From positions 1 to 53,434 of IMG/VR virus record IMGVR_UViG_3300006923_002342: DNA of 53,434 nucleotides. The stretch is one strand, 5' to 3'. Positions 24,091-53,434 of the stretch are shown in pieces. This DNA is from a virus. The notes under the pieces are model-generated. The model saw nothing but the letters and a program-made list of their open reading frames with translations, made no database searches and was not told the origin of the DNA. Position 1 is the stretch's first letter; every line of letters starts with the position of its first letter. Made by a program: the position numbers and the translations under genes.

Positions 24091-24480
24091 TTAGTCTACG
24101 GGTAAAGTTAGTTCTAAATTGTCTATTTCATCCAAAGGGATAATTGTATATTCTACCCTTACACTTAGAAAATTGGGATCGATGCCCTCAGTTTCGGCAG
24201 CACTATTAAAAATGATATTATCAACAGTAATATAGGGGAGATACTTCTTAACTTGTTGTTTTATCTTCCCGGATATTCGGCCATACAATCCGGGGTTGTC
24301 CATTTCAAACAAAAATCTTTTTAATCCAATCCCAAAATTTACATCCATTATTCGTTCACCGGGTATAGTGAACATTAAATTTTTGAAATTCTGTTTAACC
24401 AAATCTTTGTAAGCAGTTATCATCATATAACCGTTTATACTATCTCTAACAAGTGGAAGTTTTGGGGTGATTCCTGACAT
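24091..24480 (-). CDS. 25: Baseplate wedge protein, gp25-like, 129 aa
   Basis: A member of the gp25/GPW family, a small wedge subunit that contacts the sheath and starts its polymerisation in contractile tails and type VI secretion systems. The diagnostic segment is PGERIMDVNFGIGLKRFLFE (residues 40-59), matching the family pattern of a Glu-Arg pair, then FGxGLxxxLFE. The length is normal for the family. It precedes the gp6-type gene with a 26-base gap. The start ATG has an AAGGAGAAG ribosome site. Despite old annotations of this family as lysozyme, no muramidase catalytic site is visible. Confidence 0.93.
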   Translation of the reverse strand: MSGITPKLPLVRDSINGYMMITAYKDLVKQNFKNLMFTIPGERIMDVNFGIGLKRFLFEMDNPGLYGRISGKIKQQVKKYLPYITVDNIIFNSAAETEGIDPNFLSVRVEYTIIPLDEIDNLELTLPVD

Positions 24481-38251: not shown

Positions 38252-39232
38252 CTATACACCACACTCTTTATTTAATTTTTGCATATCATATTCTACCATA
38301 GTTCTCACCATTTGTTCAAAACTAATTTTAGGATGCCAATTAAATTTATTAAAAGCCTTAGAAGAATCACCTTGAATTATATCCACTTCAGTTGGTCGTA
38401 TAAATTTAGAATCTTGCTTAACATACGGTTCCCAATTTTCAATCCCAATATACTCAAAAGCAATCTTTAAAAAATCCCTTATAGAATGTAATTGATTTGT
38501 GGCTATTACATAATCATCAGGAGTATCTTGCTGCGTCATCAACCACATCGCTCTAACATAGTCAGGAGCGTATCCCCAATCTCTTTTTGAATCCAAATTT
38601 CCAAGAACAATGTGTTTTTTTACTCCACATTTTATTTGAGCAACCCCTTGTGAAATTTTACGTGTTACAAATTTTGGACTACGACGGGGTGAATTATGAT
38701 TAAATAAAATAGCATTACAGACAAATAAATTGTATGCTTCACGATAATTTCTAGTAATCCAATAAGAATAGAGTTTTGCCACCCCGTATGGACTCTGTGG
38801 CATACACGGGCTTAATTCATTGGAAGGAACATCCACAGCGCGGCCAAACATCTCAGAAGACCCAGCCTGACAAAATTTTATATTCTTGTTACAGTGACGA
38901 ATTGCTTCTAAAATCCTTAACACACCAATTCCATTTACTTCACTTGCATCTTCTGGCGTATTCCAGCTTTCGCCTACCGCACCACGATTAGAAGCTAAAT
39001 TATAAATCTCATCGGGCTTGATATTTTCCACACATTTAATAATAGATTTCTGATCTTTTAAATCACTTTTTATAAAGTGCAATTTGTCTTTGCTACTCTC
39101 TAAATTTCTATGATTTAAAGAACTTTCATCTCTTATTGTTCCCCATACTTCATAATTCTTGGATAATAGAAAATCAGCTAAATGACTTCCGTCCATACCA
39201 GTAACACCAGTTATTAAAGCTGTTTTTTTCAC
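38252..39232 (-). CDS. SDR dehydratase, GDP-mannose 4,6-dehydratase paralogue 1, 326 aa
   Basis: An extended SDR of the GMD type. The Rossmann motif is GVTGMDG (residues 9-15), the catalytic set is S125, E127 (GSSEMFG), Y149 and K153 (SPYGVAK), and [13 protein letters not shown] marks the GDP-sugar site. The 4,6-dehydratase converts GDP-D-mannose to GDP-4-keto-6-deoxymannose. It is the most divergent of three copies: where GMD usually has an AMSHV-type loop it has [17 protein letters not shown] changed specificity or a reductase/epimerase step is possible. Start GTG at 39232 overlaps the stop of the next SDR gene (GTGA), with AAGGA eight bases upstream. All GMD-type catalytic residues are present. 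Confidence 0.8.
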
Positions 39233-40224
39233 TGTAGAAGTCCTTGACTCTCACCTCTTTTTAAATATTCATAATCAGCTCGATACATCATTTCATATAA
39301 TTGTTGAAAACTTATACGTGGTTCCCACTTTAATATTTTTTTAGCCTTCGAAGCATCTCCCAAAAGATATGGAACTTCTTGTGGCCTAAAGAGTCTTTCG
39401 TCTATTTCAACGTATTTATCAGGATTCAAACCAGCATACGAAAATACACATTCTAAAAACTCTTTAATCGTATGAAAATCTCCCGTCGCAATTACATAAT
39501 CATCAGGAGTATCTTGTTGTAACATCTTCCACATGGCTTCAACATAATCCCCAGCATAACCCCAATCTCTCTTGGCGTCAAGATTGCCAAGAAATAATTT
39601 ATCCTGAAGTCCCAATTTAATTTTTGCCGCTGCTAAAGTTATTTTGCGAGTGACAAAATTCTCTCCACGCATAGGTGATTCATGATTAAAAAGAATACCG
39701 CTTGATACATGAAGATTATAACTTTCTCTATAATTTCTTACCAAATTATGAGCAAATACTTTTGCACATGCATAAGGAGAAGCAGGCATCAATCGCGAAT
39801 CCTCATTAAAAGGATAATTTAAATTATCTCCAAACATCTCAGATGAAGACGCTTGATAAAATCTAGCATTTGGACAAACAGTTTTTATTGCATTTAATAT
39901 TCTTAAAGTTCCCATAGCTATCCCATCAACTGTGTGTTCGGGAATATCAAAGGAAACACGAACATGTGATTGGGCCGCAAGATTATAAATTTCGTCGGGG
40001 TTTATATCAATCAATAATTTCCAAATTGCCCCAGCGTCATTTAAATCAAAATATATTAATTGAAAATTCTTATGTTGAAAAATCTCATCCACTCTCTGGG
40101 TGTTTTCAACTGATGTTCTTCTTTTGAGGCCGTAAACTTTATAATTTTTTTTTAACAACAAACGGGCCAAAAAAGCGCCGTCTTGCCCCGTAATGCCAGT
40201 TATTATTGCTTTCATTTGTTTCAT
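39229..40224 (-). CDS. SDR dehydratase, GDP-mannose 4,6-dehydratase paralogue 2, 331 aa
   Basis: A GMD-type SDR. It has GITGQDG (residues 10-16) for NADP, SSSEMFG with S127 and E129, SPYACAK with Y151 and K155, and [13 protein letters not shown] near the GDP-mannose site. The loop [14 protein letters not shown] is close to the usual GMD loop. The start is the ATG at 40224, which forms a TAATG overlap with the preceding ColD-like gene and has GGAG ten bases upstream. An ATG nine bases further upstream is too close to this site. It lies directly behind the 3-dehydratase gene, so it may act in the same pathway. Paralogues 1 and 3 flank the sub-cluster. Confidence 0.85.
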
Positions 40225-41399
40225 TATAAGCATTCTCCATCTTTTATCCCCGTGTTTACAATTGTACTAATAAATTCTATTTCTTCCTCGGTCAAAAGTG
40301 GATGATTCGGCAAATAAAAACCATATTCATCAACCGCCGAAACATTAGATAAATCATCTTCTCCATATTTTTTGACATAAAAGGGTTGTTTCCCCAGAGA
40401 ACCACAAATAAGAGGACGAGTTTCTATATTTTTTTCTTGAAGCATTTTAACAATTATACTTTTATTGGGATGTATCACTGGAAATGCAAAATTCGATATA
40501 AATTTATCCTTATCTTCTTTCGCGCTCCAAAACGGATTATCAATGAGTTTATTATACAAAATAAAATTTTTATTTCGTTGCTTGCAAATATCATCTAATT
40601 TGTCTAACTGACCCAACCCAATAAATGCTTGCAAATCTGTAGAGCGTAAATTAAAGCCAGCATGATAAAAAGTATAAAGAGAATTAAACCCATTAATTTT
40701 CCACTCATTCCTCAACTTCGTTTGTTGATCCGAATCCATGTCCCGATCCCAACCGTGACTTCGAATACTTTTAAGGATGTTTATTAAATCTTTGTCATCA
40801 GTAGAAACAACACCACCTTCAATGGTTGAAATATGATGACCAAAGTAAGTAGAAAAAGTTGACATTAGTCCAAAAGTTCCAAGCTTTTGACCCTTATATT
40901 CACTACCAATAGATTCACATACATCCTCTAACAGAATAACATTATATTTTTCACACAACCTTACTATTTCATCCATATGAGGGACTAAACCCAGAACTGA
41001 AACCAAAATTAAAGCTGATGGGGATTCATCTTTAAAAATATTTTCTAAAAACTCTAAATCCACAGAAAGATCTGTCATGTTAATGTCACATAGAACTGGT
41101 TTTAATCCCAATTGCATTACGGGAGATAGATCTGTTGCCCAAGACAACGCAGGAACTACAATTTTAGAACCAGGGGAAATATAATCTCCCTCTAACAAAG
41201 CCGCCAACATTAAAAGATTTGCAGAAGAACCCGAATTACAAAAAAGAGAATATTCCCTTTCTAGCCAACTACTCCACTTCTTTTCAAATTGGGTTGTTAG
41301 TTGCCCTTTTGTAAGACGAGGATAAGTTTTTAACCATTCAATTAAAGAATCTATATCCCCTTTATTTATAGTTTCTTTGGCCAAAGTAATTTGTTTCAT
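40224..41399 (-). CDS. ColD/RfbH-like PLP-dependent sugar 3-dehydratase, 391 aa
   Basis: A DegT/DnrJ-fold enzyme in which the PLP-binding lysine is replaced by histidine. The motif is [14 protein letters not shown], with H188 and H189 where aminotransferases have K-N. ColD (GDP-4-keto-6-deoxymannose 3-dehydratase) uses histidine at this position, and RfbH/DdhC enzymes do likewise. Such enzymes remove the 3-OH of a 4-keto sugar, using glutamate-derived PMP in ColD. Other features fit: [14 protein letters not shown] (residues 157-170) with the Asp that contacts the PLP ring, NSGSSAN (55-61) for phosphate binding, and a C-terminal domain of normal length. The start ATG at 41399 overlaps the TGA of the GMD gene upstream (ATGA), so the enzymes are co-translated. 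The likely product is GDP-4-keto-3,6-dideoxymannose. Confidence 0.85.
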
Positions 41400-42367
41400 A
41401 TTTCTTTTTCCCACCTTTCAATCATTTCTTCCAGCATTGTTTCAAAAGTATATTCCGGCACCCAACCCAATACTTCACGCGATTTCGATGCATCTCCCTT
41501 TAAATATTTTAATTCTTCCGGTCGCATGTATTTAGAGTTCTGAACCACATGGTCTAAATAATTTAAGCCCAATTTTTGAAACACAGTGCGACACAAGTCT
41601 CTTACCGAGTGAGTGTTGCCTGTAGCTACAATAAATTCATCGGGGATATTATGATTTAAGATCAGGTGCATCGCACGTACATAATCTTTTGAATGTCCCC
41701 AATCTCTATAAGAATCCATGTTTCCAAGTTCTAGCTTTTCCTGTAATCCTTTTTTAATAGAAACTGCACCGTGAACAACCTTGTTTGTTACAAAATTCAA
41801 GCCTCGGCGTGGAGACTCGTGATTGAATAAGATTCCATTACAAGCATGTAGTTTATAAGCATGTCTATAGTGGCGCACAAGATTGTATCCCATAACTTTA
41901 GCACAACCATAAGGACTAACCGGGTTCATGGGAGTTGTAAGCCTCTGTATACCATCATCGTCTACTGAATTACCGAACATTTCAGATGAACTGGCCTGAT
42001 AAAACTTAGCGTGAGGCGATAATGTCCTGTAAACCTCTAACATATTAAGTACCCCCAATGCATTCGTTTGAATAGTGAACGAAGGAATATCATAGCTAAT
42101 ACGCACATGGCTCATGGCTCCAAGATTATAAATCTCATCCGGCTGTACTTCTTGAAAAATACGCACCAATGAAGGGTAATCAAGGAGATCGCCATAATAA
42201 GTTTTGATTTTTCCACCCAACTCTGTTAAACGAATATCTTGATTTTGTGCCACTGAATGGCGGCGTATTATACCATAAACTTCATAATCTTTGCCATATA
42301 GATACTCGGCCAAATAACTACCGTCCTGGCCGCTGATGCCTGTAATGAGTGCTTTCTTTTTTATCAT
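41396..42367 (-). CDS. gmd: GDP-mannose 4,6-dehydratase, 323 aa
   Basis: The most canonical of the three GMD copies. It has GISGQDG (10-16), GAMSHVRISYDIPS (83-96), SSSEMFG with S127 and E129, SPYGCAK with Y153 and K157, and SPRRGLNFVTNKVV. It would convert GDP-D-mannose to GDP-4-keto-6-deoxy-D-mannose in the cytoplasm with NADP. This is the substrate of the ColD-like enzyme encoded by the next gene, whose start overlaps its stop (ATGA). GGAG is eight bases before the ATG. Length and domain order are normal. The pair provides the first two steps toward a 3,6-dideoxyhexose. Confidence 0.9.
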   Translation of the reverse strand: MIKKKALITGISGQDGSYLAEYLYGKDYEVYGIIRRHSVAQNQDIRLTELGGKIKTYYGDLLDYPSLVRIFQEVQPDEIYNLGAMSHVRISYDIPSFTIQTNALGVLNMLEVYRTLSPHAKFYQASSSEMFGNSVDDDGIQRLTTPMNPVSPYGCAKVMGYNLVRHYRHAYKLHACNGILFNHESPRRGLNFVTNKVVHGAVSIKKGLQEKLELGNMDSYRDWGHSKDYVRAMHLILNHNIPDEFIVATGNTHSVRDLCRTVFQKLGLNYLDHVVQNSKYMRPEELKYLKGDASKSREVLGWVPEYTFETMLEEMIERWEKEI

Positions 42368-43044: not shown

Positions 43045-43635
43045 TCACCTAAAAACCTTCATTTTTGTTAAATCTGGCCAATCCATAACAGTCCACCGAG
43101 TTGGTTTTGTTTTAATCGCATCTGGTAATTTTTTCAAGCCAAGTTGTGCAGTTTCTGGCGTCATGTAGTAGTGATATCCCATCATATCAATATTTTGTTC
43201 TCGCCACGGAATATTTGGATGCCTACCGTCATAAGACATTCGTTTAAGCACATCTGCTGCTTTAGCATTATCTGTTAAAATAATCCCACCACGACCGAGA
43301 CTCAAATGTTTGCGAAATTGAAAACTTACACACATAAAAGTACCGGGCAGATAAGAATCTTTCTTCCACAATACGGCTGCATCTATAATATTTGTATTAC
43401 CTAAATAATAAAAATCAGTCCATTCCTCATCCCTAAACTCAAAATCAATAGCTAGTTTGCGGGCCAAGAACGGTACTGAAATATAAGTGTTCTTCGGTAT
43501 TGTATAATATTGCACGTTTTGATAACGTAGGCACAACTCAAGAGCATGAGTGCAGCAATCAACAGCTACTGCATGTGGAGCGCCAAAGAAAGCAGCAATT
43601 TTATTTTCAAATTTTGTAATATCCTCAAAACTCAT
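43045..43635 (-). CDS. Half-length DegT/DnrJ-fold aminotransferase-like protein, 196 aa
   Basis: It looks like the PLP domain of a DegT/DnrJ/EryC1 sugar aminotransferase without the C-terminal half. FENKIAAFFGAPHAVAVDCC aligns with the N-terminal region, IIDAAVLWKK with the Asp strand, and SFQFRKHLSLGRGGI with the lysine loop, so the PLP lysine (FRKH) appears present. Full-length members are about 370-400 residues. The protein ends naturally at DLTKMKVFR, and no downstream frame carries the missing part; the next gene is FkbM. It could be a stable short phage form, a partner of another DegT protein, or a remnant. The start ATG at 43635 overlaps the upstream stop (ATGA), with GGAG eight bases before it. 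Confidence 0.65.
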   Translation of the reverse strand: MSFEDITKFENKIAAFFGAPHAVAVDCCTHALELCLRYQNVQYYTIPKNTYISVPFLARKLAIDFEFRDEEWTDFYYLGNTNIIDAAVLWKKDSYLPGTFMCVSFQFRKHLSLGRGGIILTDNAKAADVLKRMSYDGRHPNIPWREQNIDMMGYHYYMTPETAQLGLKKLPDAIKTKPTRWTVMDWPDLTKMKVFR

Positions 43636-44171
43636 TTTACACACTCCACATTCAAACTCACCAGCGTTCCATTTTTTTTATCCATATGAGGAATATATGC
43701 CTGAGAATGATCATCAAACATTGCATGTTCAGTTTCGCGCCAATCATATTTTCTAACATTAGAATATCCACAATTCTCCAAAACTTTTCTCAAACTTGCA
43801 AAATCATAAATTGTTTTGTGATAAATTGCTAAATCTCCCATCGGCATTCTTCCATAAAGAGGACCAAGCAATTGATCGAGAGAAACCGTTCCACTTGTAT
43901 AAAGCGAACTTAAAACTGTAAAGTTTGGCACGGCTATCCGCAAGATAGCGGCGGGCTTTAGAACTCGATACCATTCTCGTAATAATTTTTCAACCCCATA
44001 ACGATCAAAATACTCGACCACATGAGATGCATAAATAAGATCGACTGTGTTATCTTGGAATTCTAGCGCCTCTATAGATCTATAATCCAAATGAGGATAA
44101 TCTCCCCCATCAATGTGTGTCCAGTCAGCACCAAAATTGCGCACGCCACAGCCCATATTGATCTTAATCAT
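43632..44171 (-). CDS. Class I SAM-dependent methyltransferase, 179 aa
   Basis: The protein begins MIKINMGCGVRNFGADW, with the GCG turn of the SAM-binding motif I in the first strand. DLIYASHVVEYF and LLREWYRVLKPAAILRIAVP give the Methyltransf_11-type core. The ATG at 44171 is preferred over one 30 bases upstream because AAGGAG lies seven bases before it. The start overlaps the end of the cupin gene by eight bases. The short C-terminal part (YIPHMDKKNGTLVSLNV) does not suggest a specific acceptor. Probably modifies a sugar of the cluster, as inferred from neighbours. Confidence 0.75.
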   Translation of the reverse strand: MIKINMGCGVRNFGADWTHIDGGDYPHLDYRSIEALEFQDNTVDLIYASHVVEYFDRYGVEKLLREWYRVLKPAAILRIAVPNFTVLSSLYTSGTVSLDQLLGPLYGRMPMGDLAIYHKTIYDFASLRKVLENCGYSNVRKYDWRETEHAMFDDHSQAYIPHMDKKNGTLVSLNVECVK

Positions 44172-44583
44172 CAATAAACTCCTTATCACATGCTTGACCA
44201 TAATAAGGGCCAGTCTTATATTCCAGTACCAAAGTACCTTTTTCTAAAATTTCATAATTGTGGCCACCGCGAAAAGTAATAGATAAATCGCCTTCATTTA
44301 ATATTTCAGTAGTTAAAACTTCATCATTTAAATCATACAAAATAGCCTTAACTTTCCCCTTCAGCACCACCCACGATTCTTGAGTGATAGAAGTATGAGG
44401 CATTTCTTTGTTAACGTGCTTGTGAGGTACGAATGTCTGACCCTTATCATATTTTAAAACCGCCAACTGTAAGAATTCTTCAGCCCCCACAATATCTGTG
44501 CGCGGGGTGTCTATTTTAGACGGGGAACAAAAAATATGTAAAAGGGTGTCGTCTTCTACTTCAGAATATATTTTTTTTATCAT
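44164..44583 (-). CDS. Cupin-fold protein, possibly a sugar isomerase or WxcM-like, 139 aa
   Basis: A single-domain cupin. The first cupin motif is KGQTFVPHKHVNKEMPHT and the second is EGDLSITFRGGHNYEILEKG. Between them lies ESWVVLKGKVKAILYDL. Small cupins of this kind in sugar clusters often act as ketoisomerases, epimerases or binding proteins. The His pair HKH may bind a metal. The start ATG at 44583 is chosen because AAAGGGA lies upstream and it falls after the stop of the preceding gene; an ATG 39 bases upstream would overlap that gene. Substrate unknown. Confidence 0.65.
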   Translation of the reverse strand: MIKKIYSEVEDDTLLHIFCSPSKIDTPRTDIVGAEEFLQLAVLKYDKGQTFVPHKHVNKEMPHTSITQESWVVLKGKVKAILYDLNDEVLTTEILNEGDLSITFRGGHNYEILEKGTLVLEYKTGPYYGQACDKEFIDD

Positions 44584-44602
44584 AAATTGTCCCTTTCTGT
44601 TT

Positions 44603-45400
44603 TCATTTATACCTCTTTCCATCTTCTAGAACTTTCTCTATAATAGGGCGCTTTGTGTTGTCGATATAATCATAGATAAGAAGAATATCCTCTTTTCTAA
44701 TTCCTGCTCCGCAGCCCCATGGCTTACTTGAGCCCCATCGCGGAAATGGCACTCCCTGCTCATAAACATTGGCAGTTTTTACTAAACTGGCTGGAGCAGC
44801 AAGTGTTGCCATAGTAGCTGGATCCACATCAGGGAGATTTGGAGGACTTACACAAGAAATTATTGTTGCACCGTCCTTTTGTGATTCTGGCATATTTTTA
44901 ATTTCAAAATCCCAAGTTGTGAATTTTGGTTTTAAAAACTTTTTAAAGTATTCTTTTCTCCATATAGCGGGATGCAAAGTAGTCCTATAAGGTGCGTTAG
45001 GCAGTAATCGCACTAATCCTTCTTTATATGCAACTGAGTAAACATTCAGGTGTGTATCCAACATTGCCTTTTGAGCATTACCACAACGTATTTCTTCCTC
45101 TAGTAATTGCATTCTTTCCATATCTACATCATCCACTATCAGCGAATCAGCCATCATAACAACAAAATAATCTTCTTCAAGCTCATCAATATAAGGTATC
45201 AATGGATCTGTCCAACATTGACCAAAATCACTTTGCTTTCCAAGAGAAACATAATTAAAATTATCCGGTAGCGTGGGGATATTCGAATCATCAAAACCCA
45301 ATATGGTTACATCTTGATGTGGCCAATATCTATTGAACAAAGTAGCATAAGGCTCAAGCAGGTGTAAATACTGGTCGCATGTGGTAACTAAAATTCGCAT
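44603..45400 (-). CDS. Putative GT-A-type glycosyltransferase, 265 aa
   Basis: Residues 1-12 (MRILVTTCDQYL) and the segment YFVVMMADSLIVDDVDMERM (with an acidic cluster like a metal-binding DxD) suggest a GT-A fold. It is followed by TTLHPAIWRKEYFKKFL. The C-terminal stretch has PRWGSSKPWGCGAGI. The length suits a phage glycosyltransferase. AGGG precedes the ATG. The gene lies between a helical protein gene and the cupin gene. The assignment is based on fold-like features rather than a firm motif, and an unrelated cluster-specific protein remains possible. Confidence 0.5.
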   Translation of the reverse strand: MRILVTTCDQYLHLLEPYATLFNRYWPHQDVTILGFDDSNIPTLPDNFNYVSLGKQSDFGQCWTDPLIPYIDELEEDYFVVMMADSLIVDDVDMERMQLLEEEIRCGNAQKAMLDTHLNVYSVAYKEGLVRLLPNAPYRTTLHPAIWRKEYFKKFLKPKFTTWDFEIKNMPESQKDGATIISCVSPPNLPDVDPATMATLAAPASLVKTANVYEQGVPFPRWGSSKPWGCGAGIRKEDILLIYDYIDNTKRPIIEKVLEDGKRYK

Positions 45401-45414
45401 TTTTTATCCCTTAT

Positions 45415-45774
45415 CTAATTTTTATTGTTAAAGCCCTTATACTGCTTTACATTTCCGTCGTCAAATTTTTTGGTAAATTCTTTATTTATATGTGCGTCTA
45501 AATACTGATTTATTGCTTTTGTTAATTTAGGACGGCGATCTTTAAAACAAAAATCTAATTTTCTTTTTAAATCAAAGACTTCTTGAGGATCATTGGATTC
45601 TGCACAAGCGTCTTCAATTTTCCACATACGAATATGAAGGATGATATACTTTTCAAGCATTTCTGCAAAATTATCAGACCACTCGACACCTTTAAAATGG
45701 GGTGGCTCTTTGTCAAATCTAGACTCAATTTCTTCTAGTACCAACTTACTTATTTTTTCTAATCTTTCGCTCAT
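45415..45774 (-). CDS. Helical hypothetical protein, weakly DUF4254-like, 119 aa
   Basis: All-helical and highly charged, with many Glu, Lys and Asp. The segment IILHIRMWKIEDACAESNDP resembles the WxxED helix of DUF4254 proteins, which occur in LPS clusters, but the length is short for that family. The C-terminus is lysine and asparagine-rich (KQYKGFNNKN). Its ATG overlaps the stop of the GT9-like gene (four bases, ATGA). The role is unknown. Confidence 0.5.
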   Translation of the reverse strand: MSERLEKISKLVLEEIESRFDKEPPHFKGVEWSDNFAEMLEKYIILHIRMWKIEDACAESNDPQEVFDLKRKLDFCFKDRRPKLTKAINQYLDAHINKEFTKKFDDGNVKQYKGFNNKN

Positions 45775-46670
45775 AACGGCACTCTCTCTAAAATATTTTT
45801 TAAAACCCTTCCAACGTGTATGTTATCGCAACCTCCGGTTTCCAAAAAGGTAACACCATTATCATTAACAGGTTCTAACGCTAATAAATTTTGAGTATGA
45901 TTCGGAAGCCAGTTTGTCATTAAATTTATAGCAGGATGAGAATAAGCACCCATAACCCATTGAGCACCACTATCAGTTCCAATAACTAATTGTGAGGCTA
46001 ACGCGGCCTTTACTTGGTCAAAATATGATAATTCTGGAAATGTTCTATAACCCTTTAATTCGCTTAATGTGGGATCGGATGGCAACCCATAGTGATGAAC
46101 CGTATATCCTCTTTTTATTAAGTTATCAATCAACAAGTTCCACCAATGAGGACTTGGGGACCGCCCAGGAGATCCAGCAAAGGGCCATATAGCAATATTA
46201 TTATGATATTTAACAGTGCCCAAATTTGCTTGTTTAGCATAAGTAGAAGTCACTATCGGCAAGCCCACATCAAACCATTTATATAATTTGGGTTTCATCT
46301 CGCCCTCTGTTAATACATCTGTAATATCCATTATACCATTCATACGAGCAGTTTCTTCGACTTTAGACCTATAATTATAATAATCGGGTATATCATGTTG
46401 GGCTCCTTTAGGAATTATAATATCACACGTATTCATTAAATCTTGATCTTGGGGGCCGAAGCTGGTCCATTCGTCTGTTATTTTAATTCTATCAATCAAA
46501 GGGTGATTAAAATAGATGGGCGCAGTTTGCGCACATTTCTTATCAATTACCCAATATTTATAGCTATTAGGATATTTTTTTTCAAAATATGTTAACATAG
46601 GTAAAGCCATTATAAGATCACCTATTATCCCATAGCTCATCCCCCATATACTAAAATTTTTATTCACCAC
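45771..46670 (-). CDS. GT9-like glycosyltransferase, about 300 aa
   Basis: A heptosyltransferase-type GT-B protein. NIAIWPFAGSPGRSPSPHWW matches the usual PGxS/A-x-x-K/R-x-W-P donor-side motif. AALASQLVIGTDSGAQWVMG is the D-S/T-G nucleotide-sugar loop of GT9. The C-terminal part (ETGGCDNIHVGRVLKNI) completes the domain. The N-terminal half has WGMSYGIIGDLIMALPML, the glycine-rich acceptor-domain turn. I place the start at a GTG at 46670 just after the upstream cupin stop. A TTG 33 bases upstream would overlap that gene. ADP-heptose is a plausible donor by family, though not proven. It is the second GT9-like protein of the cluster. Confidence 0.7.
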   Translation of the reverse strand: MVNKNFSIWGMSYGIIGDLIMALPMLTYFEKKYPNSYKYWVIDKKCAQTAPIYFNHPLIDRIKITDEWTSFGPQDQDLMNTCDIIIPKGAQHDIPDYYNYRSKVEETARMNGIMDITDVLTEGEMKPKLYKWFDVGLPIVTSTYAKQANLGTVKYHNNIAIWPFAGSPGRSPSPHWWNLLIDNLIKRGYTVHHYGLPSDPTLSELKGYRTFPELSYFDQVKAALASQLVIGTDSGAQWVMGAYSHPAINLMTNWLPNHTQNLLALEPVNDNGVTFLETGGCDNIHVGRVLKNILERVPL

Positions 46671-46678
46671 CGTTGACC

Positions 46679-47038
46679 CTAATCCCCCTTTATAACTCGA
46701 CAACTATCTTCATCAAAATGTTGGGTAGAAAATTCAAAAAGCTCTGTATCTTCTAAAGCAATCATTTGGTGTCTCAATCCTGTATAAACATGAAAATTAT
46801 CGCCCGCACCTAAAACCATTTCTTCAGCTTCTAGTATATCATCATTGTCTGAAAATTTTAAAAGAATCTTGCCAGACTGGATATAGAAGACTTCATCCTT
46901 GATCTTATGATAATGCCACGAGCACCGCTTATCCTTCACGAAATATAAAAGCTTCCCACAATATTGTTCACAGTTAACAATCCACTTTTCAAATCCCCAG
47001 CCTTTGGGAACAAACTTAATCGGTATAGAAGTCTGCAT
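46679..47038 (-). CDS. Cupin, type II phosphomannose isomerase-like, 119 aa
   Basis: A compact cupin close to the C-terminal domain of mannose-6-phosphate isomerase/mannose-1-P guanylyltransferase proteins. PKGWGFEKWIVN is the typical entry. RCSWHYHKIKDEVFYIQSG carries the metal-binding H-x-H and E. The second motif is GAGDNFHVYTGLRHQMIAL. The ATG has AAGGA seven bases upstream and overlaps the HAD phosphatase gene by 23 bases. Members of this group isomerise sugar phosphates or act as binding proteins. It could feed mannose-6-P toward GDP-mannose for the three GMD proteins, but no guanylyltransferase is visible. Confidence 0.65.
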   Translation of the reverse strand: MQTSIPIKFVPKGWGFEKWIVNCEQYCGKLLYFVKDKRCSWHYHKIKDEVFYIQSGKILLKFSDNDDILEAEEMVLGAGDNFHVYTGLRHQMIALEDTELFEFSTQHFDEDSCRVIKGD

Positions 47039-47336
47039 CTTTTATTCCTTTGTCGTCCACATACATATCTCCATTGGGTTTTCCCATAAATAAATCGTGA
47101 TATTTAACTCCCCAATTATCTAATTGCTGCGCGGTATAAGCATAAAATATTTGATAAGCCTTAATCACATTATTATTAGTTCTACCCATTCCTCGCGCTG
47201 TTTGATAGATGATAGTGTGTCCCTCATCATATAATTGATTATTTTTTTCTATCCTATTCCGTTTCGGCTCTGCATTGTCATAGTCACCATAACTGTTGGT
47301 GCAAATAGTTCCATCGATATCAAAAATATAAACCAT
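47016..47336 (-). CDS. HAD-superfamily phosphatase, small C0 type, 106 aa
   Basis: A short cap-less HAD hydrolase. Motif I is FDIDGT with D6 and D8 (nucleophile and general acid). TARGM carries motif II. GKPNGDMYVDDKG carries K86 of motif III and D94/D95 of motif IV. All four HAD motifs are present in 106 residues, typical of small phosphatases in capsule and LPS clusters. It probably removes a phosphate from a sugar bisphosphate, and could therefore take the role of GmhB in the heptose pathway, although GmhB itself is longer. The start overlaps the transaldolase stop by one base (TAATG). Confidence 0.8.
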   Translation of the reverse strand: MVYIFDIDGTICTNSYGDYDNAEPKRNRIEKNNQLYDEGHTIIYQTARGMGRTNNNVIKAYQIFYAYTAQQLDNWGVKYHDLFMGKPNGDMYVDDKGIKDADFYTD

Positions 47337-48001
47337 TAGGAAATCCAGCTCTCAAAGTCTTTTAAAAACCCGTTTACCGACTCATCTGTCTTGGAGTGTT
47401 TCATAGATTTTTTAATCACCGAATAACCGGCAGTAACAATGTGGCAGCCAGCTTCCCAGGCATTCACAATATCGTAAGGGTTTCGGATGCTTCCAGCTAT
47501 AATTTCAGTATTCGTGCCCTTTTCGTCAATAAATTTACTTACAGTCGCAGCTACTTGAAGGGGATCGCCGCCGACATCAATTAATCGATTATAAAAGAGT
47601 GACACATACTTAGAACCTGCTAAAGTTGCCATCTCCATTTGTGCTGCTGTGAAACAACAAGTGCAATTCACATCAACACCTTCCGAACTTAATTTATTAA
47701 TTACCTCTAATTCTTCAAAACCAACAGGAATTTTAATATTTAGATTCTCATAACCCACATCGTTTATAATTTCCATCGCCTGACCAAACATAGAATTAGC
47801 ATCTTTAGCGAACACTTCAACACTCAAAGGGAGGTTTCCTGCCTCTCCACACAGAGAAGCAATTTTTTTAATATGTCCCAGAAAATCTGTTTTGGGTTCT
47901 TTTGCCAAGATAGAAGGGTTGGTGGTAACTCCTTCAACTATGCCTTTATTAATGGCGTCAGAGATTTCATCTAAGTTTGCTGTGTCTAAAAATAATTTCA
48001 T
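47336..48001 (-). CDS. talC: Transaldolase, TalC/FSA family, 221 aa
   Basis: A Class I aldolase of the short transaldolase family. MKLFLDTANLDEI has D6; GVTTNPS carries N28; NLNIKIPV has K90, the Schiff-base lysine; and SLFYNRLIDVGG follows. LPLSVEVFAKD has Glu at residue 62, where fructose-6-phosphate aldolase has Gln. In this family Glu favours transaldolase activity, which makes sedoheptulose 7-phosphate from fructose-6-P and erythrose-4-P. Phages, notably cyanophages, carry talC as a metabolic gene. Here it lies within a sugar-activation module instead of with photosynthesis genes. The ATG follows GAGGAAT and is three bases after the cupin gene stop. Confidence 0.9.
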   Translation of the reverse strand: MKLFLDTANLDEISDAINKGIVEGVTTNPSILAKEPKTDFLGHIKKIASLCGEAGNLPLSVEVFAKDANSMFGQAMEIINDVGYENLNIKIPVGFEELEVINKLSSEGVDVNCTCCFTAAQMEMATLAGSKYVSLFYNRLIDVGGDPLQVAATVSKFIDEKGTNTEIIAGSIRNPYDIVNAWEAGCHIVTAGYSVIKKSMKHSKTDESVNGFLKDFESWIS

Positions 48002-48003
48002 CT

Positions 48004-48414
48004 TTATTCCTCTTTGAAAGTATATTGTTTGCCATCATGGACAATGTGTGAATCTGATTCTTGATCATGAGTGGCAACTTCAATGATCGTTGTATCTTCT
48101 AAGGCAATCCTCATGTGCATTAAACCAGGCTTGATTTCAAAAACATCTCCCTTTTCTAATGTTAAAGACTTATTTTCCCCTCTGCCGATCTTCATACCTA
48201 CTTTTAATTTACCTTCTTGAATGTAGTATAATTCTTTTTTGGTACAATGAAACTCCATGCTGCTTTGTGTACCCTTTCTCATGAATATTTCTTTTAAACA
48301 AAACATTTCGTTTTGAAATAAAGTTGCCATATGACCCCAATATTTTTCTACTACTTTTGATTTAAGGTGTTTTGAAGGGATTTCCAAAATCCCATAAATA
48401 TTATCTTTGTCCAT
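48004..48414 (-). CDS. Cupin-fold protein, about 136 aa
   Basis: A single cupin domain. MEFHCTKKELYYIQEGKLKV is the first motif, with H and E ligands. KGDVFEIKPGLMHMRIALED is the second. It resembles the other cupin at 46679-47038 and is similar to mannose-6-P isomerase-type or sugar-binding cupins. Three in-frame ATGs exist (48444, 48432, 48414). I prefer 48414 because a GGAG lies upstream and the overlap with the AraD gene is shortest (14 bases). It is between the AraD-type epimerase and the transaldolase, so a sugar-phosphate isomerase role is plausible. The substrate is unknown. Confidence 0.65.
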   Translation of the reverse strand: MDKDNIYGILEIPSKHLKSKVVEKYWGHMATLFQNEMFCLKEIFMRKGTQSSMEFHCTKKELYYIQEGKLKVGMKIGRGENKSLTLEKGDVFEIKPGLMHMRIALEDTTIIEVATHDQESDSHIVHDGKQYTFKEE

Positions 48415-49084
48415 AGTAGGCTTTGTCTCCATGTTTTCGTTCATAGTGCTTGTTTAAAATATAGGAGGGCAATGGCTCAACAGGATTGGATAGTGTATTG
48501 GAATAAAAAGACATTTCGGCGACTTGTTCCATAATATAAGCATGGTTGAATGCATCCTCATAATTTTTTCCCCATGAAAAGACGCCATGGCCGCGCACCA
48601 ACACGCCGGGAGTGGCTTGGGGGGAAATACACTTCTCTCGGAATAAGTCAGTTATTTGAAGCCCTGTATTTCCTTCATAGTCATTCTCAATTTGCTCTGG
48701 TGATAATTGTGAGGTGAGAGGAATTTTTCCATTAAAATAATCAGCATGGGTCGTTCCGATACACTCAATCGGTATTCCCGCTTGGGCAAAGCTAGTACAA
48801 AACTTGGAATGTGTGTGTGCCACACTCTTTATGTGCGGAAAGTGGTGGTATAAATGCAAGTGGGTTTTCAAATCCACAGAGGGCTTCTTTCCTTCGATCA
48901 ATTCGCCAGTTGTGAGAGATACAAGGGATATGTCACTTTCATGCATTTCGCTATATTTTATACCCGAAGGTTTAATGTAGATTGTGTCGTCTTGACGAAT
49001 CGAGATATTCCCCCACGTTAATACAACCAAGCCACTAGAAGATAGTCTTTTGTTTTCCTCTAGGCACTTACTCCTTAAATTCAC
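48401..49084 (-). CDS. araD: AraD-type L-ribulose-5-phosphate 4-epimerase / class II aldolase, 227 aa
   Basis: The sequence is close to enterobacterial AraD/UlaF. LTWGNISIR (22-30), D71 in SVDLKTH, the metal ligands H90 and H92 (VAHTHS), D115 in THADYF, H166 in RGHGVFSWG, and Y224 in KAYYGQ all match, with a constant offset of five from E. coli AraD (D76, H95, H97, D120, H171, Y229). It would interconvert L-ribulose-5-P and D-xylulose-5-P, or act on a related sugar phosphate by aldol cleavage. The start is GTG at 49084, as the next ATG would remove part of the fold. It appears GC-richer by eye than its neighbour PfkB. Its placement with kinase, isomerase and transaldolase suggests an activated-sugar pathway. 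Confidence 0.88.
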   Translation of the reverse strand: MNLRSKCLEENKRLSSSGLVVLTWGNISIRQDDTIYIKPSGIKYSEMHESDISLVSLTTGELIEGKKPSVDLKTHLHLYHHFPHIKSVAHTHSKFCTSFAQAGIPIECIGTTHADYFNGKIPLTSQLSPEQIENDYEGNTGLQITDLFREKCISPQATPGVLVRGHGVFSWGKNYEDAFNHAYIMEQVAEMSFYSNTLSNPVEPLPSYILNKHYERKHGDKAYYGQR

Positions 49085-49090
49085 ACCAAT

Positions 49091-49120
49091 ATTATATCAC
49101 ACATTAAATTTCTTTTTTAA
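49091..49120 (-). promoter_or_regulatory. Candidate extended -10 box before the AraD gene
   Basis: On the minus strand TGATATAAT lies at 49099-49091: the stop codon TGA of the kinase gene runs into TATAAT. A weak -35 (TTAAAA, 49120-49115, 18-base spacer) precedes it. The start would fall near the GTG of the AraD gene at 49084, so a transcript would be almost leaderless. This is uncertain: the box may be chance. It repeats the string after the 384-residue gene stop at 103. Confidence 0.25.
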
Positions 49121-50053
49121 ATCAAATAAGTTTGGTAAATGATTTTTAGGAGTGGAAACATATAGGGCCGCCCAATTGTTGGAAATATTTAAACTCTCTT
49201 GAGGGCTATTTTCATAATCACAGAGAGCGAGCGAGGCCAAGAAGCTATCCCCAGCACCACAGGAATCCACTACATTAGTTGAGACGCCTGGGGAGTTAAA
49301 TTCTTCGCCATCTACACAAAGAAGGCTTCCCTTTGAACCCAGTGTAACACATATATCACAATTCAAACTCTTGCTTACCTCTTTTATGTTACTACAATTT
49401 AAATATTTTTTTAAAACATTGCACTCACTCTCATTCACCACCAACAAACTACAGTCTTTAAAGTTTTGAAAGTGTTCGATATCATTAGATGAAAGTTGAG
49501 AATTGATTAAAACATTTGTACCGTTCAAATTGCAGGCCGAAATTATATGTTTAATGATTTTGGGGGTCAAAAAACCATTTCTATAATCTGATATAATTAC
49601 GCAATCAAATCCAACTAGCATATCCGGGATCTCAGCCAGGATCATACCCTCCACTTCTTCAGAAATAGGTTTTTTACAATCGGTATTTAGTTGAAAATAT
49701 TTATATTCTTGTTCTCCGCGAGTGACCCAATACCTTCTTTTTACATTGTTTATCTTAGAGGCATCATAAAAAGCTTTTATTTGCACATTTTTACTACAAC
49801 TCTTAAACATGTCCATATACTCGCCCGGAGCTTTTAGGGTTAAAAAAGTAATACTTTTACATAACTTTTGAAGGTTGGAAACCACCCCAAGGGCACCACC
49901 GGGAATAGTTCTATAATTCTTTAATCGAGCCTTGAGAGTTGGTGTTTCCAACGCCAAACCGAGTGATTCGCATCTATAAGAAACATCAATGATGGTATCC
50001 CCCACAACGCAAATTTTCTTATCTTTAAAAAAATTTAGGAGTTCTTTTTCCAT
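49097..50053 (-). CDS. PfkB-family sugar kinase, HldE kinase-domain-like, 318 aa
   Basis: A ribokinase-fold enzyme. ICVVGDTIIDVSYRC (14-28) and PGGALGVVSNLQKL (51-64) are close to the N-terminal kinase domain of HldE/RfaE, which phosphorylates D-glycero-D-manno-heptose 7-phosphate at C1. The PfkB C-terminal signature VVDSCGAGDSFLA (261-273) supplies the ATP-binding anion hole and catalytic D269. The length matches the HldE kinase domain. It follows the RpiB-nucleotidyltransferase gene with 19 bases of overlap, so kinase and adenylyltransferase activities are separate proteins here, encoded side by side. The substrate could be another sugar phosphate. Confidence 0.85.
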   Translation of the reverse strand: MEKELLNFFKDKKICVVGDTIIDVSYRCESLGLALETPTLKARLKNYRTIPGGALGVVSNLQKLCKSITFLTLKAPGEYMDMFKSCSKNVQIKAFYDASKINNVKRRYWVTRGEQEYKYFQLNTDCKKPISEEVEGMILAEIPDMLVGFDCVIISDYRNGFLTPKIIKHIISACNLNGTNVLINSQLSSNDIEHFQNFKDCSLLVVNESECNVLKKYLNCSNIKEVSKSLNCDICVTLGSKGSLLCVDGEEFNSPGVSTNVVDSCGAGDSFLASLALCDYENSPQESLNISNNWAALYVSTPKNHLPNLFDLKKKFNV

Positions 50054-50904
50054 GTTTTGAGAGACTTTGCTTTCTTAATGATACTAGTTGTAGAATAATT
50101 TTCTACAAAAGGGCAAATGCGAATTTCAGTATCGGTGGGGATATTATCTCTTTTCCTAACTTCTGAGCTTGACCATTCTCCACCTTTTACAACAATATGA
50201 GGGTTGACTTGTTCTCTAATGGAGTCTAATTCTCCATTAAATATAATAACTTCATCTATTTCCCTTATAGAATCAAGAACCTTCTTGCGATCAATCTGGG
50301 AGTTAACTGGTCTTGATGGACCTTTAAGTTTTCTAACCGAAATATCGTCATTTATAGCCACAATCAATCTATCTCCCAATTTTTTAGAAAATTTAAAGAG
50401 TTCAATGTGACCTTTGTGAAGGATATCAAAAACACCATTCGTAAACACCACTTTATCAACGGGTTTGGAATTCAATTTTACTATTCTTTTTTCATGGCGG
50501 CCCTCTCCATAGGGTTCGCCGAGCCATGAATCTAAAATCTGTAAAGAAGTTTCTGCATTATTAATCCATGCTCCCATGCAAATTACATTAGAGTCATTGT
50601 GTTCACGGCACTTGGGGGCAGTTTCTATATTGTGAACGAGGGCAGCTCTTATGTTCGGAAAGCGATTTGCCGCGATGCTCATGCCAACGCCAGTTCCACA
50701 TATTAAAACGCCACGATAAGATTCATCAGATGAAACAATAGAAGAAATTTGTTTAGCGTAATCCACATAATCCACACTCACGTCTGCATTGTATGGACCT
50801 ATATCAATTACTGTATATCCCCTCTCCTTAAGAAGTTGTGTAAAATAACTTTTTAACTCGACACCGTTATGATCGGCACCTAAGATGATAACTTTTTTTT
50901 CCAT
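50035..50904 (-). CDS. RpiB isomerase fused to HldE2-type nucleotidyltransferase, 289 aa
   Basis: Two domains in one frame. Residues 1-145 are RpiB/LacAB: GADHNG with D11 and H12, CGTGVGMSIAANRF with C69 (the enediol base of RpiB), EHNDSNV and RHEKR, all as in E. coli RpiB. Residues 150-289 are the adenylyltransferase part of HldE: TNGVFDILHKGH with the HxGH nucleotide motif (163-166), KLGDRLIVAINDD, KGPSRPVN, KGGEW and STTSII. No linker of note separates them. RpiB interconverts ribose- and ribulose-5-P; HldE2 transfers AMP to heptose-1-P. A natural fusion of the two would join sugar isomerisation to nucleotide activation. The next gene is the matching kinase. I know of no described enzyme with this architecture. 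Confidence 0.88.
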   Translation of the reverse strand: MEKKVIILGADHNGVELKSYFTQLLKERGYTVIDIGPYNADVSVDYVDYAKQISSIVSSDESYRGVLICGTGVGMSIAANRFPNIRAALVHNIETAPKCREHNDSNVICMGAWINNAETSLQILDSWLGEPYGEGRHEKRIVKLNSKPVDKVVFTNGVFDILHKGHIELFKFSKKLGDRLIVAINDDISVRKLKGPSRPVNSQIDRKKVLDSIREIDEVIIFNGELDSIREQVNPHIVVKGGEWSSSEVRKRDNIPTDTEIRICPFVENYSTTSIIKKAKSLKTWKKNS

Positions 50905-50910
50905 TTTTAC

Positions 50911-51786
50911 CTACAAGTGTTTTAAAAAAATTCCAAAGGCTTCGTTTTGTTGCACTCTGATAGCGCTTATCAAAGCTTCACCATTAAGTCCCCACCAATC
51001 TTGGGATGCGGCACCTAATAACTGCGTCTTTGTTATAACTCCACAGTTTAACATCTTAGCTTCTACTACGAGCCGACAAAGAGATTCTAGAACTGTGGGG
51101 ATGTAAACAAGAGTGCGATAAGAAGATAACGTTTTTAAAAATTCTTCCTCATCAGAGGAGTGAATTAGGTCGAAATCATACTTGCTTCGTTGACAAAAGG
51201 CTGATGCTTGTTGAGTTCCTTTGACCACGTTGTGAGAATTAACTACACAATAATCTTTATCTTTAGGGGTTTGAGCTATTGATTCAATAAAATTGAGCTT
51301 GCTTTCAGACCACAAACTACACCCAATACTCTCTACATTGGAAATGTCCAAATTTTTTCTCACACTATCAGCTTGAGAATTACTAAGACAAACCACACAT
51401 TTAGAGTTTTTATAAAAATCCCTATTGATTACCTGATCTGGGGGAGCAAGGAAGTTCGGAAATCTTGAAGGATCTCTTGTTTTAAGATATTTGTGGTCAT
51501 GTTCATAAATAACATAATGTGTATCTTTTAAAGCTCTTTTTGATTCTTCGGTAAGTTGTACGAAGTTTCCAACAATAAATTTTTTATTCTTATTAGACTC
51601 TATGAAAGAAGGGGATATATCGCGGCAATATTTTTTTTCAACATTGAAGCCATATTCCTCTAAGAGAGAGATAAGAACTGAGTCGTTGTTTTCTGCGCCA
51701 CCTTTATTGTTTAAATCTACTTTATAAAAGTCGCCTATAAAAATACACTCTAGATCATTTGAACTTCGTTCAATAGAGAATTCCAC
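50911..51786 (-). CDS. Putative GT4-type glycosyltransferase, 291 aa
   Basis: Probably a GT-B transferase. The N-terminal half has ECIFIGDFYKVDLNNKGGAE, which gives the GG-x-E turn typical of GT4 acceptor domains. VVCLSNSQADSVRKNL is the end of that domain. The donor-side half has VNSHNVVKGTQQASAF and YIPTVLESLCRLVVEAKM, where two Glu (LESLCRLVVEA) form the family's E-x7-E-like pair. The start is GTG at 51786, supported by AGGA six bases upstream. It overlaps the preceding glycosyltransferase gene by 37 bases. The donor and acceptor are unknown. Confidence 0.65.
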   Translation of the reverse strand: MEFSIERSSNDLECIFIGDFYKVDLNNKGGAENNDSVLISLLEEYGFNVEKKYCRDISPSFIESNKNKKFIVGNFVQLTEESKRALKDTHYVIYEHDHKYLKTRDPSRFPNFLAPPDQVINRDFYKNSKCVVCLSNSQADSVRKNLDISNVESIGCSLWSESKLNFIESIAQTPKDKDYCVVNSHNVVKGTQQASAFCQRSKYDFDLIHSSDEEEFLKTLSSYRTLVYIPTVLESLCRLVVEAKMLNCGVITKTQLLGAASQDWWGLNGEALISAIRVQQNEAFGIFLKHL

Positions 51787-53006
51787 TCTTCTTCCTCTTT
51801 GCTGGGTTTATAGACAGAGTTGCATAATTTCTGATATTGGACTGATTCTTCAAATGTTTCTTGAACCCATTTTTGCAACTTCTTAGCATCGGATTTTGCA
51901 GCTCCAATATTCTTATGAACTTGCCTTAAAGTCTTTTTATAGTTCCACTCTTTTGGGAAACACCACATGGAATCCTTTTGAATTACACCTTCCCAATGTG
52001 CCTCTGGTTGGATTGGTTTAATATCAAATGCAATCTCGCTAAACATTGCTTTATTCTTTACTTTACCCTTTTTGTCTTTAACGGGCATATGAAGGAAATC
52101 CACTTGGCCACTCCAATTTGGAGCAATTACTGGAAGTCCATTATACGCAGCTTCAAAAAGTGGAAGACCGAAACCTTCTCCGTGTGACAAATTAATCATC
52201 GCCTTTACTTGTGGATGTTGATATAGCCCTGTCATCTCTGATTCACTCATATCACCATGTAAAAGATAAACTTCACACTTGCGACCGGCGTGTTCTTTTA
52301 AAAGTTCTTGTAGGCGTTGGTGGGCGAACGTTCTATCGCGCAAGCAATTTTTAGCCAAAGAGGTTTTTACTATAAGTCCTACCTCTTGATCATAAAATTC
52401 CTCTACAAACCATGTAATCGTTCTCTCCAGGTTTTTTCTCGCAATCCATGTGCCGACAGTGAGAAAATTAAAGTCGTGCTTTAAATCTAAATCTAGATTA
52501 ACAGGTTCTATATTTTTTACAGGATATCCCACGACTTCAATTGGGCAAGTCGATTTGGCCATGAATTGCTCACCTGTCGCATTGTTGGTGGCGGGATATT
52601 CCGTGTTGTCAAAACCGAATTTGGCATGTTCGGACACCACAATAATCTTATCCATTTGAAGGGATTTTTCTACCCATCCTGGTGCGATTTTTGTGGTTTC
52701 AATACCGGCTGTTACACCAATGTTTATCGGTGCTAGCTTCTCCCATTCATTAGGGATGGTAACTTGCAAGGATATATCAAATTGTCCGCCTTGTTGAGTA
52801 TGTTGGATTGTTTTTCCTAAAATAAGATCAATCCATTGTCGCTCTTCGGTGTCTTCATGGAGCCAACCGGTTTGGCCCCAATTAAGATTAATAAGATATA
52901 CGTCAAACACATCAGGATGTGATCGCAAAGATCTTAACACAAACCTGGTATGTTCACCATAACCACTCTGACTTAAGGCTGGACCCCTAACTAATACTTT
53001 TTTCAT
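51750..53006 (-). CDS. GT4 glycosyltransferase, 418 aa
   Basis: A full-length retaining GT-B enzyme. KKVLVRGPALSQSGYGEHTR (2-21) is the glycine-rich N-terminal loop. The hinge has DFNFLTVGTWIARKNLERTI with the R/K of the donor-phosphate site (ARKN). GEGFGLPLFEAAYNGLPVIA is the E-x7-E motif with its usual G-F-G-L-P context. The C-terminal helix (LQKWVQETFEESVQYQKLC) closes the fold. The start ATG at 53006 overlaps the stop of the previous glycosyltransferase gene (ATGA). It probably adds one residue to a surface or virion glycan. Confidence 0.85.
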   Translation of the reverse strand: MKKVLVRGPALSQSGYGEHTRFVLRSLRSHPDVFDVYLINLNWGQTGWLHEDTEERQWIDLILGKTIQHTQQGGQFDISLQVTIPNEWEKLAPINIGVTAGIETTKIAPGWVEKSLQMDKIIVVSEHAKFGFDNTEYPATNNATGEQFMAKSTCPIEVVGYPVKNIEPVNLDLDLKHDFNFLTVGTWIARKNLERTITWFVEEFYDQEVGLIVKTSLAKNCLRDRTFAHQRLQELLKEHAGRKCEVYLLHGDMSESEMTGLYQHPQVKAMINLSHGEGFGLPLFEAAYNGLPVIAPNWSGQVDFLHMPVKDKKGKVKNKAMFSEIAFDIKPIQPEAHWEGVIQKDSMWCFPKEWNYKKTLRQVHKNIGAAKSDAKKLQKWVQETFEESVQYQKLCNSVYKPSKEEEEWNSLLNEVQMI

Positions 53007-53434
53007 ACTGCCATTAACTCCCAAGATTTATAATTTTTACGATTTTCCCATGAACCATGTTCTTCGTGTGTTTTTAATAAGATTTCTTCCCATTTTTGGG
53101 CAAAATTTTCAAAATTATAATTATCTAAAACATGTTGGCGACCTGCTTTGCCGAGTTCAGCTCTTTTGTCGGACCCATATTCATACATTTTAACCAAAGC
53201 ATTCGTCACGTCTTTACCGGACAGGCGATCTTCATAAATGAATGGCACCTCTTGGGAACCAATAATTGCTTTTGAAGCTGGTTCAATACCTATTCCGTGC
53301 TCGCACTCTACTACTTTCTTTGCCTTATTGTTTCTTTTTAACATAATAGATTCGCTAACTTTATCTATCTTAGTCACTTGTTCTTGCAACCCACCTGTCA
53401 TAGTAGCAATAATGGGCGTTTCACATGCCAAAGA
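53003..53434 (-). CDS. C-terminal part of a GT4 glycosyltransferase, cut by the right edge
   Basis: The frame is open at the window edge and ends at 53003 with TGA. The visible protein begins SLACETPIIATMTGGLQEQV, equivalent to the end of the E-x7-E donor motif of GT4 (usually EAMACGTPV). It continues with a C-terminal helical region (GKAGRQHVLDNYNFENFAQK). About 143 residues are visible, perhaps a third of the protein. The gene is transcribed first in the visible cluster, which therefore extends beyond the window. Confidence 0.8.
   Translation of the reverse strand, partial: SLACETPIIATMTGGLQEQVTKIDKVSESIMLKRNNKAKKVVECEHGIGIEPASKAIIGSQEVPFIYEDRLSGKDVTNALVKMYEYGSDKRAELGKAGRQHVLDNYNFENFAQKWEEILLKTHEEHGSWENRKNYKSWELMAV

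Follow-up and report, generated by a model that had tools for sequence, protein, structure and literature searches.

A conserved viral gene cassette with an RpiB-HldE2 fusion as a candidate route to a nucleotide-activated C7 or C8 sugar

Described pathways and the viral cassette

Bacterial ADP-heptose is produced by a pathway comprising GmhA, HldE1/HldA, GmhB, HldE2/HldC and HldD. According to the account of Tang et al. (2024) in PMC11461863, viral nucleoside diphosphate (NDP)-heptose enzymes show three architectures (nucleotidylyltransferase, kinase-nucleotidylyltransferase and isomerase-kinase-nucleotidylyltransferase), and a phosphatase is reported absent from viruses. Pelagimyophages carry rfaE among their lipopolysaccharide genes (PMC7029224), and the multigene transfers in PMC9599517 are those of curli and DNA modification. 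In lincomycin biosynthesis the transaldolase LmbR joins fructose 6-phosphate (F6P) or sedoheptulose 7-phosphate (S7P) to ribose 5-phosphate, giving octulose 8-phosphate, and the isomerase LmbN, the predicted kinase LmbP, the phosphatase LmbK and the guanylyltransferase LmbO act later (PMC5854111, PMC4351081). We analysed a gene cassette on the IMG/VR virus record IMGVR_UViG_3300006923_002342, the whole 53,434 bases of which are called the window here. An earlier note had assigned six open reading frames (ORFs) at 47016-50904 on the - strand to HAD, TalC, cupin, AraD, kinase and RpiB-HldE2 families, and ORF positions, Pfam and NCBIfam matches bore this out. In the open-access literature, no paper was found that describes these genes as a set or a fusion of RpiB with HldE2. 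The cassette genes are as follows.

50035..50904, - strand: RpiB-HldE2 fusion, with an RpiB-type isomerase at aa 1-146 and an HldE2-type nucleotidylyltransferase at aa 150-281
49097..50053, - strand: HldE1-branch kinase of the PfkB family, its substrate pocket switched (Q121, N123, R158, Q186); 19-nt overlap with the fusion gene
48401..49084, - strand: AraD-type class II aldolase/epimerase, with Zn-site His residues, THAD Asp and C-terminal YGQ Tyr; 44-nt overlap with the cupin gene
48004..48444, - strand: cupA, a cupin like phosphomannose isomerase (PMI) and lyxose isomerase; H66, E71 and H110 conserved
47336..48001, - strand: transaldolase of the TalC/fructose-6-phosphate aldolase (FSA) fold, with Schiff-base K90, transaldolase-type E62 and F136, and family-specific L135, Y137 and G170
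47016..47336, - strand: small HAD phosphatase with DxD motif, EcbF/BcbF-like; last conserved gene of the cassette

Adjacent ORFs of the cassette overlap or lie no more than 12 nt apart, as in a translationally coupled operon. The cassette is a real, co-inherited unit. It probably encodes a self-contained route to a nucleotide-activated C7 or C8 aldose, other than the usual ADP-D-glycero-D-manno-heptose, for a surface or virion glycan. This explanation is based on gene content, gene order, co-occurrence, catalytic residues, shared pocket changes and selection, from which we infer the enzyme steps.

The cassette shares with the bacterial ADP-heptose pathway a homologous kinase and nucleotidylyltransferase, a phosphatase step and, in several genomes, GT9 neighbours. 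It differs in that GmhA is missing, RpiB is fused to HldE2, and AraD, a dedicated TalC and a PMI-like cupin are added; moreover, the substrate residues of the kinase are switched and the HAD is of EcbF/BcbF type rather than GmhB. Heptose-type nucleotidylyltransferases are virus-borne in the work of Tang et al. (2024) as well, but an RpiB-nucleotidylyltransferase fusion is not among the architectures listed in PMC11461863, the cassette does encode a HAD, and the Arg in (F/L)xxGRSTT of the promiscuous STTR5 nucleotidylyltransferases is absent (FVENYSTT in the window, and no Arg in aligned relatives). The lincosamide pathway to a GDP-octose appears analogous in step order, with a dedicated transaldolase followed by isomerase, C1 kinase, phosphatase and nucleotidylyltransferase, whereas its product is a GDP-sugar, its published enzyme list has no RpiB or AraD, and it lies in an antibiotic cluster, not a glycan cluster.

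Two groups of viral genes are also comparable. The HldE2 loci of cyanophages S-SSM7, S-SM2, P-TIM68, S-T4 and Sf-CH8 and of 36 IMG/VR loci contain a kinase with HldE2, usually a PMI-like cupin and in several cases a small HAD, within glycan clusters; in contrast to the cassette, they have no RpiB and no adjoining TalC, and their kinases retain the HldE1 residues. The auxiliary gene talC of cyanophages encodes the same TalC/FSA fold with transaldolase-type residues, but it is found outside glycan cassettes, and the cassette TalC forms a clade separate from both cyanophage and housekeeping TalC (34-36% identity to cyanophage talC).

Conservation of the gene set

The full-length fusion was found on 44 viral contigs and seven genome contigs (metagenome-assembled genomes, MAGs, or single-amplified genomes) in the first scans. 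Scans based on TalC and AraD added seven viral contigs, to give 51 viral contigs besides the window. Profile-HMM maps of the loci showed the usual order to be RpiB-HldE2, kinase, AraD, cupin, TalC, HAD. A kinase stood beside the fusion in 51/51 viral contigs. By our count from the maps, the 48 untruncated viral contigs carried kinase, cupin and TalC in 48/48 cases each, HAD in 47/48 and AraD in 44/48. Contigs with the cassette TalC (n=53) fell into 33 clusters at 95% identity, and dN/dS of the genes tested, HAD being left out, was 0.004-0.27, which indicates purifying selection.

Control loci lacked these associations. Viral loci with HldE2 only (n=36) had a kinase and mostly a cupin, with RpiB, AraD and TalC in 0/36, and viral loci with an ordinary TalC (L291-L330, n=40) had RpiB or AraD in 0/40. 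Viral AraD genes were on cassette contigs in 40 of 43 loci; the remaining loci are L371 and L372, which stop at a contig edge, and L345, which holds AraD alone. Since the set and its order recur in dozens of viral contigs at low dN/dS, the run of genes exceeds chance. The co-occurrence that the earlier note had proposed to look for in other viral genomes was thus found, with no random scatter of homologues, and random co-location was ruled out by the conserved neighbours and the controls.

Variants of the cassette were also seen. In L283, L285, L289 and L290 RpiB is unfused and AraD-RpiB-kinase-TalC-cupin remain together, with HAD-HldE2-second kinase about 6 kb downstream. In MAGs of bacteria of candidate phyla radiation type (L083, L084) the cupin and HAD are fused. 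The T4-type gene gp23 was present in 9/34 cassette-carrier records, including every record >150 kb, which places T4-like viruses among the carriers. INPHARED phages yielded no full-length fusion at 80% cover, and the BFVD fold library held no record of the fusion. Within the phylum of genome G002, 380 genomes were scanned and the full fusion turned up only in G002 and G003, so that the cassette is rare in cells. In another cassette-bearing MAG, G007, the sole TAL_FSA match (C25:3362-4132) holds an in-frame TAA.

Active-site residues of the encoded enzymes

Alignments showed that catalytic residues are preserved in all cassette enzymes. The RpiB domain matched LacAB_rpiB (4e-47, Pfam) and scored 140.3 bits with TIGR01120 rpiB, slightly above the cut-off of 138.65; RpiB membership is thus supported by the curated cut-off and by the catalytic Asp-His, Cys, His and Arg-His-Arg. 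The HldE2 domain matched rfaE_dom_II (4e-39), reached 133.7 bits with TIGR02199 (cut-off 181.5) and retained the HxGH and STT motifs. Invariant in the fusion were D11, H12, C69, H102, N103, R136, H137 and R140 (RpiB catalytic) and H163 and H166 (HxGH). The predicted structure of the fusion has two well-formed domains (mean pLDDT 83), which match solved RpiBs and HldC. N13 and W113 occurred in 62/62 cassette loci, whereas the 68 non-cassette RpiBs mostly had Ala or Gly at position 13 and Arg113 in 63/68. In trypanosomal RpiB, R113, R137 and R141 stabilise the phosphate (PMC4882579).

A similar switch was seen in the kinase. It matched PfkB (3e-17, Pfam), and its best NCBIfam match was rfaE_dom_I (2e-32, far under cut-off); with the HldE1 equivalog TIGR02198 it reached 112.5 bits against a cut-off of 345, R32, R121 and K186 being among the replaced residues. 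G32, Y117, Q121, N123, R158 and Q186 were present in 46-51 of 51 cassette kinases, whereas the matching positions in 42 HldE1-type viral kinases were R32, H117, R121, D123, mostly Asn at 158, and K186. Four contigs (L009, L015, L016, L290) carry an extra kinase/HldE2 pair besides the cassette, although L290 has a second copy of the kinase alone. This pair (L009 13673-14792; L015 13376-14561; L290 16305-17712) retains the HldE1 residues and scores higher against HldE models. Two routes to one sugar would be superfluous in these viruses, and the cassette therefore probably makes a different sugar from the more HldE-like pair.

AraD matched Aldolase_II (4e-44, Pfam) and exceeded the cut-off of NF006047 AraD (276.7 bits against 257); with the equivalog TIGR00760 it reached 242 bits against 389. 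It aligns over its full length with L-ribulose-5-phosphate 4-epimerase of E. coli, and the Zn His residues, the THAD Asp and the C-terminal Tyr were retained. The second Ser of PSSD is replaced by Val70 (PSVD) in 45/47 cassette members.

Glu and Phe at the positions of FSA Gln59 and Tyr131, together with the Schiff-base Lys, distinguish transaldolases from FSA. TalC (TAL_FSA 5e-45, Pfam) had K90 in 47/47, E62 in 46/47 and F136 in 47/47 members and is thus of transaldolase rather than FSA type; its pocket changes, L135, Y137, G170 and others, are specific to the family. The cassette families of RpiB, TalC and AraD each form one clade apart from non-cassette relatives. Several cassette genomes hold an additional ordinary RpiB or transaldolase, which sets the cassette copies apart from the housekeeping enzymes. 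Viral and bacterial copies share the pocket changes; the product is therefore probably alike everywhere, and probably not ADP-D-glycero-D-manno-heptose.

The cupin was nearest to PMI (PF01050 in 21/29 members), and to lyxose isomerase in some; a fold search fitted sugar isomerases but did not tell isomerase from dioxygenase folds. The HAD was nearest to EcbF/BcbF (2e-13) with intact motifs. It also matches PHROG 1238, a family in which, as in cyanophage GenBank records (L162-L166), a protein of about 110 aa is named 'phosphoheptose isomerase'. That widely copied name appears to be wrong, because those phage genes match HAD profiles and their genomes contain no SIS_2.

The proposed route and competing products

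The proposed chain would run from a ketose phosphate to an aldose phosphate, a 1,n-bisphosphate, a 1-phosphate and an NDP-sugar. TalC would transfer a C3 unit to form the ketose phosphate, either S7P or, with an aldopentose 5-phosphate as acceptor, octulose 8-phosphate, and AraD would invert one carbinol centre of a ketose phosphate. Ketose would be converted into aldose by the RpiB domain, the PMI-like cupin or both, the HldE1-like kinase would phosphorylate C1, the HAD would take off the terminal phosphate, and the HldE2 domain would yield the NDP-sugar, which neighbouring glycosyltransferases would transfer into a glycan. The earlier note had pointed to kinase, phosphatase and nucleotidylyltransferase counterparts, and with them the isomerase-kinase-phosphatase-nucleotidylyltransferase logic is complete. 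Its reading as a whole was partly supported. GmhA (SIS_2) was not found in 46 virus records, nor in G001, G002, G003 and G007 (four of the seven cassette-bearing genomes); a self-contained pathway would therefore have to rely for its isomerase on RpiB or the cupin, the only two candidates.

The note had left the choice between an activated heptose and an activated pentose. Tentatively, a non-manno heptose is the most likely product. It is suggested by HldE homology, by a transaldolase able to give S7P and by GT9 neighbours in G001, G002, G003, G007 and L283/L290. We infer a ranking in which the heptose is slightly favoured over an octose, a product that the note had not considered and that uses every enzyme.

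Such an octose is somewhat less likely, but a serious competitor. Following lincosamide logic, AraD and RpiB would make an aldopentose 5-phosphate, TalC would add C3 from F6P or S7P to form octulose 8-phosphate, the cupin would convert this to the aldose, and the kinase, HAD and HldE2 would lead to an NDP-octose. All seven activities would have a role, and lincomycin provides a precedent with the same step order (PMC5854111, PMC4351081). The separate clade and altered pocket of the cassette TalC, a kinase without the basic residues conserved in HldE1, and a cupin resembling PMI and lyxose isomerase agree with it, and variants without AraD could still begin from ribulose 5-phosphate. However, the change of PSSD to PSVD in AraD and R113W in RpiB speak against plain pentose 5-phosphate substrates, and GT9 neighbours favour a heptose. 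At a similarly low probability, the product may be an octose, or a different higher-carbon sugar not known from the glycans of viruses or bacteria, made by a transaldolase route that resembles the lincosamide one and arose independently in viruses and deep-branching bacteria; RpiB and AraD would then have been adapted to supply a non-standard pentose or heptulose phosphate.

Some other product, ordinary ADP-heptose included, is unlikely. RpiB-type isomerases give products with C2-R configuration (ribose, allose, galactose), which would not yield the manno isomer. The ordinary ADP-D-glycero-D-manno-heptose route, with RpiB in place of GmhA, is improbable in spite of the HldE1- and HldE2-like domains, the HAD and the transaldolase, and of the working NDP-heptose enzymes that viruses carry (Tang et al. 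2024, as described in PMC11461863 and PMC11573728). It would leave AraD without a job. The ordinary route, as raised in the earlier note, was rejected on the changes that run through the whole family in the pockets of kinase, RpiB, AraD and TalC and on the separate HldE-like pair in L009, L015, L016 and L290.

An NDP-pentose, made from an RpiB/AraD pentose 5-phosphate through the 1,5-bisphosphate and pentose 1-phosphate, is also improbable and is the least likely of the C5, C7 and C8 products. RpiB and AraD do belong to pentose-5-phosphate families by curated cut-offs, with the RpiB catalytic set intact, but TalC and the cupin, the most constant partners, would have no role, and RpiB R113W, the AraD Ser to Val change and the extra ordinary RpiBs of several cassette genomes argue against it. 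Auxiliary metabolism raising pentose-phosphate flux with no sugar-nucleotide route is very improbable: talC is common in cyanophages (502 phage records match), but the cassette TalC has its own clade, on which ground a cyanophage-type talC was rejected, ordinary viral TalC lacks cassette neighbours, kinase, HAD and HldE2 would have no place, and the cassette is located in glycan clusters.

Several points weigh against a self-contained route to a C7 or C8 aldose as proposed. RpiB and the PMI-like cupin are both present, each a candidate for the C1-C2 isomerase; the unfused variants have two kinases and one HldE2; and AraD is absent in L031, L032, L253 and L254 and in the L082 contig. The role of AraD Ser75, which we take to be a phosphate-binding site, is assumed. 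GT9 enrichment is only moderate (about 7/20 against 2/26 other HldE2-bearing virus records over the cut-off, in records of unequal length), less than the neighbouring GT9 genes had at first led one to expect.

If the proposed C7 or C8 route is correct, diverse T4-like viruses and reduced-genome bacteria would carry a complete, portable sugar-nucleotide pathway, with an apparent transaldolase dedicated to a glycan sugar instead of central metabolism. The product would join ADP-heptose, GDP-heptose and lincosamide GDP-octose on what is a short list of activated C7/C8 sugars. What was an unexplained conserved gene set becomes a pathway testable in vitro, with six proteins and seven activities.

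Glycan setting and neighbouring genes

The destination of the product is likely a surface or virion glycan. The cassette of the window sits inside a cluster of glycosyltransferase, methyltransferase and dehydratase genes. In L086, a contig from a Prochlorococcus single-cell genome, Wzz, sugar-transferase and glycosyltransferase genes lie next to it in what looks like a polysaccharide locus of the host. The genes next to the cassette in the window are as follows.

51750..53024, - strand: GT4-like glycosyltransferase, upstream of the cassette
50911-51786: ORF without family; with the GT4-like gene it stands before the cassette in several relatives
46679..47038, - strand: cupB, a second PMI-like cupin (phrog_7851), directly after the HAD gene with a 23-nt overlap; accessory, absent from most cassettes
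45771..46703, - strand: divergent GT9-like glycosyltransferase; 25-nt overlap with cupB

The label 'cysteine dioxygenase' of phrog_7851 is doubtful, because the protein resembles PMI and occurs together with HldE2 in cyanophages as well.

The GT9-like protein (45771-46703) had no Pfam match (PF01075 was not reached) and only a weak heptsyl_trn_I match (3e-5), being very divergent; against GT9 profiles, hhalign gave a probability of 95.7 and E 1e-8, and 7.5e-7 for PDB 3tov. Of the GT9-type transferases that the earlier note placed in the cluster, this one was recovered, and no second one was confirmed in the window. GT9 genes stand next to the cassette in the bacterial/archaeal MAGs G001, G002, G003 and G007 (one to three per genome), and one lies directly upstream of the unfused cassette in L283 and L290, the two inspected. 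A NUMOD3 homing-endonuclease-type protein is encoded immediately upstream of that GT9 gene in L283 (6159-7061).

The source virus of the window is a T4-like aquatic virus. The window has baseplate genes of T4-like type (gp6-like 22262-24064, gp25-like 24091-24480). Close to them are giant ORFs at 11252-20713 (3153 aa) and 24495-32243 (2582 aa); no PHROG matched several other large neighbours (979 and 1274 aa). Besides glycosyltransferases and methyltransferases, the long glycan cluster contains three GDP-mannose-dehydratase-like proteins and DegT aminotransferases. The three dehydratase-like proteins and one DegT aminotransferase stand together at 38252-42367. A further cupin-like gene of the cluster is at 44164-44622, and a short DegT-like protein (43045-43644, 199 aa), too small for a complete aminotransferase, is kept in L009 and L015.

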